Origin: Pseudalkalibacillus berkeleyi
GTDB taxonomy: Bacteria; Bacillota; Bacilli; Bacillales; Fictibacillaceae
Length of the DNA: 64,000 bases
Assembly: GCF_021608225.1 (NCBI RefSeq)
Contig: NZ_JAKIJS010000001.1
Span: forward strand, 2,108,001 to 2,172,000
Direction: 5' to 3'
Below the pieces are notes generated by a model. It was not told the DNA's origin. It made no database searches and saw only the letters and a list, made by a program, of their open reading frames with translations. How positions within the stretch are numbered: position 1 is the first letter of the stretch; each line of letters opens with the position of its first letter. Positions 41,891-58,700 of the stretch are shown here, in pieces. A program made the position numbers and the translations under genes.

Positions 41891-42096
41891 AGCGGAAGAA
41901 ATATTCGAGACTCCTGCGGGAACAGCGAGCCAAGCAAGACTCCGCCACGATTAGGGATCTTCGACTAACAGTAAGGACCTTCGACTAAGTGTAGCCACGT
42001 CCTGTGGTGAACGTCGAAACCAGTACTCCCTGTGAAAGTGAGTGAGGACGCTTGCGGTTCGCCCGCGGAAAGCGAGTATATTTCTGTAGCCACTAA
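41891..42096. repeat. Interspersed imperfect-palindrome repeat (copy 1)
   Basis: The outer ends are imperfect inverted repeats: AGAAATATTCGAGACTCCTG on the left and, read from the other strand, AGAAATATACTCGCTTTCCG on the right. Two direct repeats of GGATCTTCGACTAA/GGACCTTCGACTAA lie 20 bases apart (41955, 41975). More G+C-rich than its surroundings, with no ORF. The GACTCCTGCGGG...CCGCGGAAAGCGAGTAT layout is that of non-coding repeats scattered through Bacillaceae genomes. It fills most of the 430-base gap upstream of the NAPRT gene. Confidence 0.7.
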
Positions 42097-46693: not shown

Positions 46694-47113
46694 TTATTCG
46701 CCTTTTTTGTATTCTGCGATAACTTCTGTTCCTAGTCCGCCTCTTGCATTCCAAATTGCAGTAATCTGCATTTCCTTTGGATCAAGAAGTTGTACCAGAT
46801 CATCAAGAATACGGTTGGTTGCATGCTCTTGATAAATACCTACGTTTCGATATGAAGTCAAGTAATATTTCAATGATTTCATCTCTACAAGATTCTCATT
46901 CGGAATATAGCTGATATGGAATTCAGCGAAATCCGGAAGTCCTGACCATGGACAAACGGATGTAAATTCAGTTGTTGGAATCTTAACGAGTGTATTTTTC
47001 CCTACATATTCGTATGGAATTGTTTCTAGTATATCAACAAGGATGACATCCTCATTTTCAATATCAAATCGAATACCTTCATATTTACTGTGGTTTACCT
47101 CAACTTTTGCCAC
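46694..47113 (-). CDS. queF: NADPH-dependent preQ0 reductase QueF
   Basis: 139 residues from a GTG with AAAGGG eight bases upstream. The QueF signature is complete: catalytic cysteine in FTSVCPWSGLPDF and the NADPH motif EMKSLKYYL (E-x-K-S-x-K). It reduces preQ0 to preQ1, the last free-base step before tRNA insertion. Shorter at both ends than the 165-residue B. subtilis enzyme, with a diverged N-terminus. Here it sits between ytpP and ytpQ instead of in the queCDE operon. Confidence 0.9.
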   Translation of the reverse strand: MAKVEVNHSKYEGIRFDIENEDVILVDILETIPYEYVGKNTLVKIPTTEFTSVCPWSGLPDFAEFHISYIPNENLVEMKSLKYYLTSYRNVGIYQEHATNRILDDLVQLLDPKEMQITAIWNARGGLGTEVIAEYKKGE

Positions 47114-47193
47114 GTTATTCACCCTTTCTAATGACAATAGAGACCTTATCTCAATGTTAAATTGTAACACCTGAAAGGGAAAAAGTCACTGTT

Positions 47194-55445: not shown

Positions 55446-56123
55446 TCAGCCTCTTGTGGCATAAGGAATCGGGTCTTCAGCTCCAGCTTCTTCAAAGCCT
55501 TTCAAGCGTAAAAGGCAGCTATCACACTCGCCACAAGCGACTTGTTCTCCTAGGTAACAAGATGTCGTTAGGTCATACGGTACGTCCAAACGTAATCCCT
55601 CTTCAATCGTTTCCTTCTTCGTCATTTGAATAAGCGGTGCCTCAATCTCAAATTTCCCACCTGTAGCTCCAGCTTTTGTCGCAAGGTTAACCGTTTCGTT
55701 CATGCTTTCAATAAATTCAGGTCTACAATCAGGGTAACCGCTATAGTCAACGGCTGATACGCCGATATATATCGCTTCTGCTCCAATCACCTCTGCATAA
55801 GCACTTGCAAGTGATAGGAATATCATATTTCGGGCTGGTACGTATGTTGCAGGAATATCTTCATCTACTCCGCCTTGTCTAACGTCTATAGACTCATCAG
55901 TCAATGCGCTTCCACCGATCTGTTGCAGGAAGCTAACATCTACAACACGATGTTCTGGAGCATCGAAATATTTGGCAACCTTTTCAGCTTGTTCAACTTC
56001 ACGATTGTGGCGTTGTCCATAATGAAACGTAATCGGATAAAGTGAATAGCCCTTTTCTTTTGCGATTCCCATACATGTAGTACTATCTAGTCCGCCGCTT
56101 AGAACGACAACAGCTTTCTTCAT
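55446..56123 (-). CDS. queC: 7-cyano-7-deazaguanine synthase QueC
   Basis: 225 residues. N-terminal PP-loop VVLSGGLDSTTCMG, the YVPARNMIFLSLASAYAE segment and the C-terminal zinc site CYLGEQVACGECDSCLLR. It makes preQ0 from 7-carboxy-7-deazaguanine with ATP and ammonia. AGAGGGG lies in the end of queE, three bases from the start. Last gene of queDEC. Confidence 0.95.
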   Translation of the reverse strand: MKKAVVVLSGGLDSTTCMGIAKEKGYSLYPITFHYGQRHNREVEQAEKVAKYFDAPEHRVVDVSFLQQIGGSALTDESIDVRQGGVDEDIPATYVPARNMIFLSLASAYAEVIGAEAIYIGVSAVDYSGYPDCRPEFIESMNETVNLATKAGATGGKFEIEAPLIQMTKKETIEEGLRLDVPYDLTTSCYLGEQVACGECDSCLLRLKGFEEAGAEDPIPYATRG

Positions 56124-56126
56124 AAC

Positions 56127-56858
56127 TTATACCCCTCTCTGATTTGGATCCCAGATCACTTTGTGCATTTGTAGGCTTAGTTTGACCTCTGGTAGTGGCT
56201 CAGCTAGCATTTTTGATACGAGCTTTTTCGGAGGCATCGTTTCCCATACTGGACTAAACAACACTTGACCTTCCTTGTGGTGTTCTTTTACAACTGAGGT
56301 TGCGATGTTAAAGTCTTCATCGCTTCCGATCACAAATTTAATCTCATCCTGTGATCGTAAAATTTCAAAATTCTCATGGATCATCCTATCCATCTCACCT
56401 GAATCTGGTAATTTGTAGTCCATAATGAATCTTGCTTTATTTTTTATAGCTTCATCTTCATTTCGTAACGCTTCAAATGGAATAAGATCGATTGCCCCAT
56501 TCGTTTCAATATGCACATCTGTAATATGATCTAAGTCACACATTGCCTTTAGTAATGCAGCAGATTTCGTTCCATGAATCAAAGGCTCTCCACCTGTAAA
56601 GCAGATCCGACGACTTGGAAAGCTTTGAACCTTCTCCACAATCTCTTCAATCGTCGCTTTATATTCTTCCTTAGCTGGCGCATAGCTATAATCCGTATCA
56701 CACCATGTACATCGTAAATTACAATGAAACACACGTACGAAAACTGTAGGAAAGCCTGCCATGCTACCTTCGCCTTCAACTGTTTCAAAAATCTCGACCA
56801 TAGGAAGCTCCCATTTCATATATTCCGTTTGGTCAGGTAAAATCATTTGTTTACTCAT
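56127..56858 (-). CDS. queE: 7-carboxy-7-deazaguanine synthase QueE
   Basis: 243 residues of a radical-SAM enzyme. VEIFETVEGEGSMAGFPTVFVRVFHCNLRCTWCDTDYSY carries the iron-sulfur cysteines, and CFTGGEPLIHG follows. It ring-contracts carboxy-tetrahydropterin to CDG. Starts eight bases inside the end of queD, so translation is coupled. Confidence 0.95.
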   Translation of the reverse strand: MSKQMILPDQTEYMKWELPMVEIFETVEGEGSMAGFPTVFVRVFHCNLRCTWCDTDYSYAPAKEEYKATIEEIVEKVQSFPSRRICFTGGEPLIHGTKSAALLKAMCDLDHITDVHIETNGAIDLIPFEALRNEDEAIKNKARFIMDYKLPDSGEMDRMIHENFEILRSQDEIKFVIGSDEDFNIATSVVKEHHKEGQVLFSPVWETMPPKKLVSKMLAEPLPEVKLSLQMHKVIWDPNQRGV

Positions 56859-57324
56859 TGTCCATCCACTCTCGTTTTAAAGTTGCGTAGCTTGTTGGCG
56901 TTTCATAAAGCTTTAATTCTTCTAAACGCGTTCCTAGCTTCTTATATTCATCTACCTTGAGGCGTCGTTCTAACTGTTCCCAGATCCAAACGATCATATT
57001 TTCTGCAGTCGTATTCATTTTCGGCAGAGCGTCATTTAAATACCGATGATCAAGTTTTGAATCAATTTCCTCTTTAAAAAGGGCTTTAATATCACCAAAA
57101 TCCACTGTTATACCAATCTCATTGACGAAACCACTAACTGTAATAACTAATTTATAAGTATGTCCATGTAAACTTTTACACTTTCCTTCATAACAATGTA
57201 AATGATGGGCCGCATCAAACGTGAATTCCTTCGTAACAGCAACACGCTTATTATGATACTTCAATTCGTGACGTTGGATATCTTCGTCAATCTTTTCTAC
57301 CTTTTTAGGAATTTGAAAATCCAT
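56851..57324 (-). CDS. queD: 6-carboxytetrahydropterin synthase QueD
   Basis: 157 residues. The pterin synthase fold has zinc histidines in TFDAAHHLHCYEGKCKSLHGHTYKL, the catalytic cysteine in CKSLHGH, and a C-terminal KLYETPTSYA glutamate. It converts dihydroneopterin triphosphate to CPH4. AGGAGGGTACG precedes the ATG. First gene of queDEC, under the preQ1-I riboswitch about 300 bases upstream. Confidence 0.94.
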   Translation of the reverse strand: MDFQIPKKVEKIDEDIQRHELKYHNKRVAVTKEFTFDAAHHLHCYEGKCKSLHGHTYKLVITVSGFVNEIGITVDFGDIKALFKEEIDSKLDHRYLNDALPKMNTTAENMIVWIWEQLERRLKVDEYKKLGTRLEELKLYETPTSYATLKREWMDNE

Positions 57325-57421
57325 CCTACGTACCCTCCTCTTCGTTAAATATTAAACCGTAAACTAACCTTGTATTTTTGATAAACATTCTTGCTCGCAA
57401 ACACTTGCAAAAGTCTTGTAA

Positions 57422-57557
57422 ATTTCTTAATGAAATTCACGACACTCCAGCCGGTAAAAGCGGGCTAGGTGAGACCCCACAACGACGACGTCGAAGCCAC
57501 CACATCCTGTGCAAGTGAGGCTGGCAGATCGCCGAGAGAATTTCAAAGAAATTTAAT
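57422..57557. repeat. Interspersed imperfect-palindrome repeat (copy 2)
   Basis: The ends are inverted: AAATTTCTTAATGAAATTC on the left, and AAATTTCTTTGAAATTC read from the other strand on the right. The interior is more G+C-rich (CCGGTAAAAGCGGGC, GACGACGTCGAAG) and shares CCAC-R-TCCTGTG with the repeat at 41.9 kb, suggesting one family. No ORF. It lies between the preQ1 riboswitch terminator and queD. Confidence 0.55.
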
Positions 57558-57578
57558 TTATTCTCGAAAAAACAAAAA

Positions 57579-57600
57579 ACTCCACCAAAAAAAGTGGAGT
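57579..57600 (-). terminator. Riboswitch-controlled terminator upstream of queD
   Basis: On the minus strand ACTCCAC pairs with GTGGAGT and is followed by TTTTTTGTTTTTT. It sits about 30 bases after the preQ1-I aptamer and far upstream of any stop codon on this strand, so it is an attenuator, not a gene-end terminator. Confidence 0.8.
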
Positions 57601-57625
57601 GTGAAAGTAAAATCTGAATTGTTCA

Positions 57626-57672
57626 CGCTCCCTAGTTTTGTTTAATGAGGGGTGGGAATTACGAACCCTCCA
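57626..57672 (-). promoter_or_regulatory. preQ1-I riboswitch of queDEC
   Basis: On the minus strand GAGGG and CCCTC close a short P1 around a TTCGTAATTCCCA loop, followed by the A-rich tail ATTAAACAAAACTAGGGAG. The loop CCC can pair with the tail GGG to form the H-type pseudoknot. This matches the class I preQ1 aptamer form. Downstream, GGAGCGTGAA can pair with TTCACACTCC (one mismatch), an antiterminator that competes with the terminator. Ligand binding should sequester GGGAG and stop transcription. Confidence 0.82.
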
Positions 57673-57756
57673 TAATTCAATATATTAATGACAAAACCCA
57701 TTCTGTTATACTATAGAATAAAGGAAAACAATTCGGTTGGAAAGGGGCATGCCATT

Positions 57757-58062
57757 TTGAAAACTTCTACCATTGTAGGTGTAGGTTTAGGCTTTCTTGC
57801 AGGGGCATTCGTTTCAAAGCAAATACAAACGAGACCTATTACACCTGAAGCAGCACTCAGCAATATTAAACAGAAGGTGCAAGCAAAAGTCAGTGGATCT
57901 TGGATCTACACAAATAAAGAAAGCGTAAATGTAAATGACTTACACTATAATGTCTATAAAGGCGGATTTACACGTGAGACGCCTTCGGGTGATGAGCACT
58001 TTCTTTTCACTGTAGATGCTGACACTGGATCTGTTATTGAATTATCAAGTACAAACGTATAA
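57757..58062 (+). CDS. Small PepSY-like domain protein with membrane anchor
   Basis: 101 residues from a TTG behind GGAAAGGGG. An N-terminal glycine-rich helix (TSTIVGVGLGFLAGAFVSKQI) is followed by a C-terminal 70-residue domain (ALSNIKQKVQAKV...GDEHFLFTVDADTGSVIEL) of PepSY pattern. Probably membrane-anchored and extracytoplasmic. An in-frame ATG 23 codons earlier lacks an RBS. Divergent from queDEC. Confidence 0.68.
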   Translation: MKTSTIVGVGLGFLAGAFVSKQIQTRPITPEAALSNIKQKVQAKVSGSWIYTNKESVNVNDLHYNVYKGGFTRETPSGDEHFLFTVDADTGSVIELSSTNV

Positions 58063-58081
58063 TTTTCAAGCACATGTTAAA

Positions 58082-58118
58082 GGGGCCGAACTCAAATCTT
58101 GAGTCAGCCCCTTTTCTT
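58082..58118. terminator. Bidirectional terminator
   Basis: GGGGCCGAACTCA and TGAGTCAGCCCC form a hairpin followed by TTTTCTTT on the plus strand. It resembles the hairpin at 46607. Confidence 0.85.
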
Positions 58119-58130
58119 TAAGGCATACTA

Positions 58131-58700
58131 TTAGTTAAATGTGTGCTTTTGGTTGTAAATGTTGTTACGAATTTGGAAGCTTGTCGAAGAATAAACTTGA
58201 TTGCCCCATACAAACATGAAGTAAGCTGGGATCAATAAGATCAAGCCATGTAGAGACAAGATCCAACCAAGGTTCATCTTCTTACCAAGATGAGCAAAGC
58301 TATCTTTGTATTCAATCAGCTTGTCATTCTCAAGCTTACCAACTTCAGTTCCAGTAAGAACCTTCTTATTTGTTGCATCATAGTAAACTACTTCTCTATG
58401 AGAAAAAGTATAAATGTCGTCACGTACAGTTTGAAACTTCGCTAATGAAGCATAAACAGTAATCGGTCCAGACGCTTCTTTTCCATCTTCCGCTTGAGGA
58501 GTAGCTTCCACTTTAATTGTCTCTGAAAGGTCTACCGCATTTTTTGTCTTATGAAAATCATAAAATTCCTTTTCCAAATGCTTCTCAACAGCTTTTTCCA
58601 TGCCTTTTGGTTCTTCAACATCTGTAGCTGCAAGCGCACCTGCTCCACCTGATAGTAGTAGCGTTAAAGCCATCAATGAGGCTGTAATTTGCTTCAACAT
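58131..58700 (-). CDS. Secreted/membrane protein of unknown function
   Basis: 189 residues from the ATG at 58700, nine bases after AGGAGGG. Signal peptide (LKQITASLMALTLLLSGGAGALA, cleavage near ALA-AT), a charged extracellular domain, and one C-terminal transmembrane helix (about 150-170) with a short tail. No family is recognised. Topology: outside domain anchored by the C-terminal helix. Confidence 0.65.
   Translation of the reverse strand: MLKQITASLMALTLLLSGGAGALAATDVEEPKGMEKAVEKHLEKEFYDFHKTKNAVDLSETIKVEATPQAEDGKEASGPITVYASLAKFQTVRDDIYTFSHREVVYYDATNKKVLTGTEVGKLENDKLIEYKDSFAHLGKKMNLGWILSLHGLILLIPAYFMFVWGNQVYSSTSFQIRNNIYNQKHTFN

Follow-up and report, generated by a model that had tools for sequence, protein, structure and literature searches.

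The leader of queD in the 64,000-nt stretch of DNA analysed here (the window) raises two questions: whether a preQ1-I riboswitch controls the genes behind it, and what is contributed by the palindromic repeat that separates this element from queD. The initial annotation had read the minus strand as an aptamer of preQ1-I form, an antiterminator, a terminator and an interspersed repeat ahead of queD. All of these parts are present on that strand and, as far as sequence can tell, both the observation and the interpretation placed on it are supported. We consider it very probable that a preQ1-I riboswitch, a type I variant of the family and beyond, controls transcription of queD, a queE-like gene and queC. 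Judged by comparison among relatives, the surprise lies in the form of the aptamer, which is conserved in the family and scores under the curated threshold, and less so in the insertion.

Anatomy and conservation of the queD leader

Read 5' to 3' on the minus strand, the order is aptamer, antiterminator, terminator, repeat, Shine-Dalgarno sequence, queD, queE-like gene and queC, at the following window positions:

57670-57628, minus: predicted preQ1-I aptamer
57647-57670, minus: P1 stem-loop (GAGGG, loop UUCGUAAUUCCCAC, CCCUC), base roles mapped from PMC8752633
57670-57666 and 57651-57647, minus: P1 arms GAGGG and CCCTC
57652, minus: predicted specificity base, the last C of the loop
57628-57646, minus: A-rich L3 and tail, ACUAGGGAG
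57632-57628, minus: proposed 3' strand of pseudoknot P2, GGGAG, facing UUCCC at 57658-57654
57622-57631, minus: antiterminator 5' arm, GGAGCGUGAA
57596-57605, minus: antiterminator 3' arm, UUCACACUCC, with 57600-57596 common to the terminator 5' arm
57579-57600, minus: intrinsic terminator hairpin, ACUCCACUUUUUUUGGUGGAGU
57578-57567, minus: T-rich tail of the terminator; the sequence directly after the hairpin is TTTTTGTTTTTT
57420-57554, minus: 135-bp interspersed palindromic repeat with terminal inverted repeats AAATTTCTTTGAAATTC ... GAATTTCATTAAGAAATTT
57333-57340, minus: Shine-Dalgarno sequence of queD, GAGGAGGG, by inspection
56851-57324, minus: queD, 6-carboxytetrahydropterin synthase
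56127-56858, minus: queE-like radical SAM gene, overlapping queD by 8 bases
55446-56123, minus: queC (TIGR00364, over cut-off)
46694-47170, minus: QueF open reading frame

The aptamer tail, AAACTAGGGAG, ends at 57628 on the minus strand. QueD scores 104.7 bits with TIGR03367 (cut-off 89.25), while the queE-like protein has QueE models as its best matches, yet stays below their curated cut-offs; the three genes would share one transcript. On the plus strand, window positions 57688-58062 contain a small divergent gene whose product has a PepSY domain (27.1 bits against a cut-off of 24); its 5' end, where the start codon is uncertain, points towards the sequence upstream of the riboswitch. The sole gathering-level Rfam match in the window is a Bacillaceae-1 RNA (RF01690, 48.4 bits) at 41969-42036 on the plus strand.

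RF00522, the Rfam preQ1-I model that had been proposed as a check, matches at exactly the expected place (57675-57626, minus strand; E-value 0.0036 in a 1.3-kb search and 0.0023 in a whole-genome search), but with 27.6 bits it falls below the Rfam gathering score of 39. At the gathering score there is no RF00522 match in the window or the genome, and the queD-leader aptamer is thus left without Rfam annotation. A lone match of 27.6 bits is insufficient to identify the element, and the case is carried instead by conservation adjoining que genes, a comparison that supports the preQ1-I identity and points to a variant form. The features expected of preQ1-I are a 5-bp P1 with a G-C pair on top, an A-rich L3, a tail complementary to the loop (as in an H-type pseudoknot) and a location upstream of queuosine genes, and all of these are found here.

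A search for queD in 40 relatives gave a match in 36, and RF00522 was run with a lax E-value on 34 genomes of the family, 24 of which were also in the queD search. In all 24 family genomes in which queD was located, an RF00522 match of 23.0-29.5 bits lies directly upstream of it, and all of these 24 queD-leader copies stay under 39 bits. An over-threshold preQ1-I match elsewhere is present in six of the 34 genomes; five of the six are among the 24, so that in these Rfam calls the other copy and misses the one at queD. Eight loci with matches over or near the threshold were read: the first (L134) precedes queF, while the other seven (L135-L141) all seem to precede the same gene, which TIGR00697 identifies as a queuosine precursor transporter in L135, the one of the seven that was tested. 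Reliance on the Rfam threshold would leave the queD operon of the family without its likely regulator in annotation.

As the gathering score is silent on the queD-leader element, a separate model, R1, was built from an alignment (A1) of 24 distinct aptamers, chosen by an early pattern that fixed part of the motif and left out copies with G at position 11 (e.g. L043). Of 249 genomes of the order, 43 contain an R1 match with an E-value of 0.01 or better and 29 a match of 54 bits or more. Of these 29 strong loci, 16 reproduce a row of the model exactly and 13 do not. Going downstream from the aptamer, the first of these three que genes to be reached is queD at 27 loci, queE at L157 and queC at L147. 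A further locus, L171 (47.1 bits), lies ahead of queC and its loop is shorter. None of the 19 strong loci (of 29) that were scanned with Rfam reaches the RF00522 threshold, and neither does L171. With a fixed pattern, the queD-leader form was found upstream of queD in 32 of 80 queD loci and was absent from 48, a number that includes the deviating copies L039, L047 and L060.

Within the 24 aptamers of A1, 97.4% of P1 cells and 95.7% of P2 cells are paired. P1 covaries at one pair (G-C, A-U and U-A), whereas the three central pairs of P2 never vary; P2 is thus without covariation support and rests on its complementarity and on a slide control, in which 96.6% of cells pair in register against at most 72.6% when slid, a difference partly favoured by construction. 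The percentage paired was reached by none of 500 shuffles and the covariation score by 34 of 500. The number of pairs changed on both sides was reached by 321 of 500, which makes covariation weak overall.

The predicted terminator switch

The annotated antiterminator with one mismatch and the terminator with a U-tract are both present. The antiterminator (GGAGCGTGAA with TTCACACTCC) has a single C-A mismatch and a predicted energy of -10.4 kcal/mol, equalled by one of 200 dinucleotide shuffles, and the terminator at 57600-57579 has -11.4 kcal/mol, equalled by none of 200. This was the only terminator found in a pattern scan of 56800-58200; since shuffles of the same region yield a mean of one, the scan by itself proves nothing.

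Among 54 distinct leaders, a simple terminator was found in 33 and none by scan in 21. In 30 of the 33, the antiterminator fold pairs at least 4 of the 5 bases of GGGAG with the 5' side of the terminator; shuffling the sequence after GGGAG by base, which keeps only base composition, gives an expectation of 9.7. The three leaders that fail are L073 (3 of 5 bases) and L111 and L157 (0 of 5); the supposed terminator of L157 lies inside queE and is probably not a real one. This comparison bears out the claim that GGGAG is common to the pseudoknot and the antiterminator and lends support to the reading of the element as an OFF switch. When preQ1 is plentiful, the pseudoknot would close by pairing of loop UUCCC with tail GGGAG; with GGGAG hidden in P2, the antiterminator would lack its 5' arm, the terminator would form and the operon would be off. 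When preQ1 is scarce, GGAGCGUGAA would pair with UUCACACUCC, taking away the 5' arm of the terminator, and transcription would continue. We infer that ligand turns the operon off because GGGAG is shared and because the known Bacillus subtilis switch works in this direction. The nearly equal energies of the two structures fit a switch that is tipped by ligand.

An alternative would be that the terminator and antiterminator have decayed, that control has been lost and that the repeat is the mark of a relaxed leader. The antiterminator mismatch and the inserts found in several genomes of the genus would agree with this, but the aptamer, both antiterminator arms and the terminator are retained in six genomes (G000 and G003-G007), in which it is the sequence following the terminator that varies, and the two energies are balanced. 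We regard decay as very improbable and prefer a working switch.

The same aptamer seems to serve ribosome-site control in some species. In six loci (L030, L049, L154, L160, L168 and L169) it ends a few bases before the start codon, and in the first four of these GGGAG sits where the ribosome-binding site would be; in three others (L032-L034) a hairpin extends to the start codon. All nine are among the 21 leaders without a simple terminator. One aptamer would then act in two modes of control within a single order, so that the change between transcriptional and translational platforms could be traced in close relatives.

Two further arrangements were seen. By inspection, the last hairpin before queD in L032-L034 and L161-L167 passes through a T tract into the start codon, and it may be a terminator and a ribosome-site blocker at once. 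In L109 and L111 (genomes G002 and G001), an apparent terminator stem, AAGRACUG ... CAGUUCUU, is followed by a T tract and encloses 93 and 98 nt rather than a short loop; neither locus contains a gathering-level Rfam match.

The repeat behind the terminator

The repeat had been put at about 130 bp, in a leader longer than usual. It spans 135 bp (57554-57420), has terminal inverted repeats and lies between the terminator and queD, and parts of it give 23 matches in its own genome, itself included, with L010 and L023 being parts of one element. Its outer palindrome recurs in L003, L005-L009 and L017; the rest is part of an inner module, which other copies carry inside different outer palindromes. 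By inspection, this inner module (L010-L014 and L020-L022, own genome) contains two CAC-AGGAY-GTG hairpins and a CTTCGAC/GTCGAAG stem, and it lies mid-way in several different outer palindromes, as a mobile unit nested within other repeats might. Its AGGA loops are reminiscent of CsrA sites. The repeat is short, apparently non-coding, palindromic and present in many copies, like other interspersed palindromic repeats of Bacillaceae, and is presumably of the same general kind as bcr1 of Bacillus cereus. Literature searches by words and with a 12-base piece of related copies returned no relevant name among the matches listed.

The leader is indeed lengthened. The distance from P1 to the start of queD is 346 nt in the window and 519, 517, 403, 363, 232, 186 and 239 nt in the other seven genomes of the genus, while in Fictibacillus it is 122-143 nt in 13 of 15 loci and 174 and 181 nt in the other two. 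The closest leader without a recognised repeat (L110, 186 nt) keeps both aptamer and terminator. Comparison of the queD leaders of close relatives, which had been suggested, shows that this position is taken by other repeats or by no recognised repeat. Repeats lie behind the terminator in five of the eight genus leaders (the window, L105, L106, L107 and L108): L106 and L107 share one element, and L106 carries one more repeat besides; stretches of the L105 and L108 inserts match 60 and 56 pieces of their respective genomes; and the window and L105 repeats share 37 bases at 81%. In L105, inspection also reveals a second long inverted repeat (ATCTTGATGAGAAA ... TTTCTCATCAAGAT) behind the first, inside arms ATGCTCCCC/GGGGAGCAT and just before queD.

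The repeat might itself be functional: as a structured part of the leader it could uncouple queD from the riboswitch or tune it, acting as an internal promoter, a site of processing or a determinant of stability. Its RNA fold of -45.5 kcal/mol (z -3.1) is equalled by one of 200 shuffles, and a slightly wider cut folds with z -2.1 (7 of 200). However, a palindromic repeat would fold well anywhere, and the plus-strand fold is unremarkable (z -1.3). As to its position, some repeat is present in five of eight genus leaders, compared with a library repeat downstream of the aptamer in one of 30 SAM-riboswitch loci of the genus (L207), a control that is biased in that the same small library was taken from the queD leaders themselves. 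The L106 element matches three of the 30 SAM loci. Long SAM leaders are not rare, with a median of 118 nt and 8 of 29 measured exceeding 200 nt. The repeats also differ between species, and L110 has none recognised. No sigma-70-like site was found on the minus strand between the terminator and queD; the scan of the 56800-58200 region likewise found no consensus promoter just upstream of the aptamer, so this absence weighs little. We think a regulatory role for the repeat unlikely. A separate proposal, that the queD leader is a hot spot for repeats (five of eight leaders, at least four kinds), was dropped, since it was post hoc, L106 and L107 share an element and the SAM control is biased.

Given that this position holds different repeats in close relatives, or no recognised one, the repeat is taken to be incidental. 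It would have been inserted between the terminator and the ribosome-binding site, leaving a longer leader and an untouched switch, and most likely has just lengthened the leader; the genus comparison gave no sign of regulation by it.

The aptamer form and published preQ1-I subtypes

Over 33 distinct aptamers, the loop consensus is UUCGNRAUUCCC, a free base and C, and the tail is ACUAGGG. The pattern used required five standard P1 pairs with a G-C top, the first U, C at 8, a purine at 11, A at 12, CCC, the specificity C and ACUAGGG, and left open the second U, G at 9, base 10, the bases between A12 and CCC, and the free base. This free base, directly before the specificity C, is A in 18 aptamers, U in 8, G in 5 and C in 2. 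With loop UUCCC facing tail GGGAG, P2 can form three G-C pairs.

PMC11625349 describes type I aptamers as carrying UU on the P1 5' strand, with UC ahead of the 3' strand and a conserved tail C, and as binding two stacked preQ1 molecules, while type II has AC before the 3' strand. In the Carnobacterium antarcticus (Can) structure described in PMC8752633, the first ligand is served by U6, C17 and A30. The second is served by U7 and C31 and donates a hydrogen bond to U16, and C8-A12-U32 forms a ceiling. The window copy retains all of these mapped residues except U16, which is A. Three marks can be compared across the group. First, UU on top of the P1 5' strand is present in all 33 aptamers, the pattern having fixed the first T but not the second; L039, L047 and L060, which are in A1 and outside this pattern, have a single U before CG. 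Second, the tail C followed by UA (C31, U32) is present in the window, is invariant in all 24 rows of A1 (chosen by a pattern containing CTAG) and was also seen in the R1 loci read. Third, the type I UC before the P1 3' strand (U16, C17) is replaced in the window by AC, the type II mark, which occurs in 18 of the 33 aptamers and is no rule of the group.

The departure at position 16 raises the possibility that this RNA, whose preQ1 ligand is itself a prediction, senses another compound of the pathway such as preQ0. The two-site contacts U6, U7, C17, A30 and C31 of the type I structure described in PMC8752633 are nevertheless matched in the window, and QueF, the maker of preQ1, is present in all eight genomes of the genus. 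In the genome studied here it scores 139.1 bits with TIGR03139 (cut-off 86.9), so the host can probably make preQ1. We judge another ligand to be improbable and retain preQ1 as the predicted one.

The aptamer form is a distinct one; a literature search found no paper combining preQ1 and Fictibacillus, and we do not claim that the form is unpublished. Tentatively, and with less confidence than we place in the riboswitch itself, the form may be a separate Bacillales preQ1-I subtype missed by the Rfam threshold, in which the two-site residues of type I are kept, position 16 is freed and an ordinary G-C P2 replaces a largely non-canonical one, with one aptamer used for terminator control and seemingly for ribosome-site control. 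Because position 16 varies naturally among these type I-like aptamers, they offer a direct test of whether binding two ligands requires U16. If the form is a separate subtype, binding of two preQ1 molecules by it would bear directly on whether U16 is needed for the second ligand.

Among known systems, the queD-leader form resembles type I (RF00522; the C. antarcticus aptamer of PMC8752633) in its H-type pseudoknot, UU on the P1 5' strand, loop specificity C, A-rich L3, CUA in the tail and position upstream of que genes. It differs from type I in its score, which lies below the Rfam threshold, and in the position before the specificity C, where bases other than U occur. Compared with the type I-like copies of the same family (L135-L141), its loop is longer (UUCGAAAACUC in L135) and has UUCCCN where they have ACU, so that P2 can form three or more ordinary pairs. 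The predicted mechanism is like that of the type II transcriptional switch of B. subtilis, in which, according to PMC11625349, a ligand-stabilised pseudoknot excludes the antiterminator and the terminator forms, and the window copy shares with that switch an A before the specificity C. In contrast to the B. subtilis switch as described there, the type I marks UU and CUA are kept, and the strand given to the antiterminator is the GGGAG of P2, whereas the A-rich L3 is part of the B. subtilis antiterminator.
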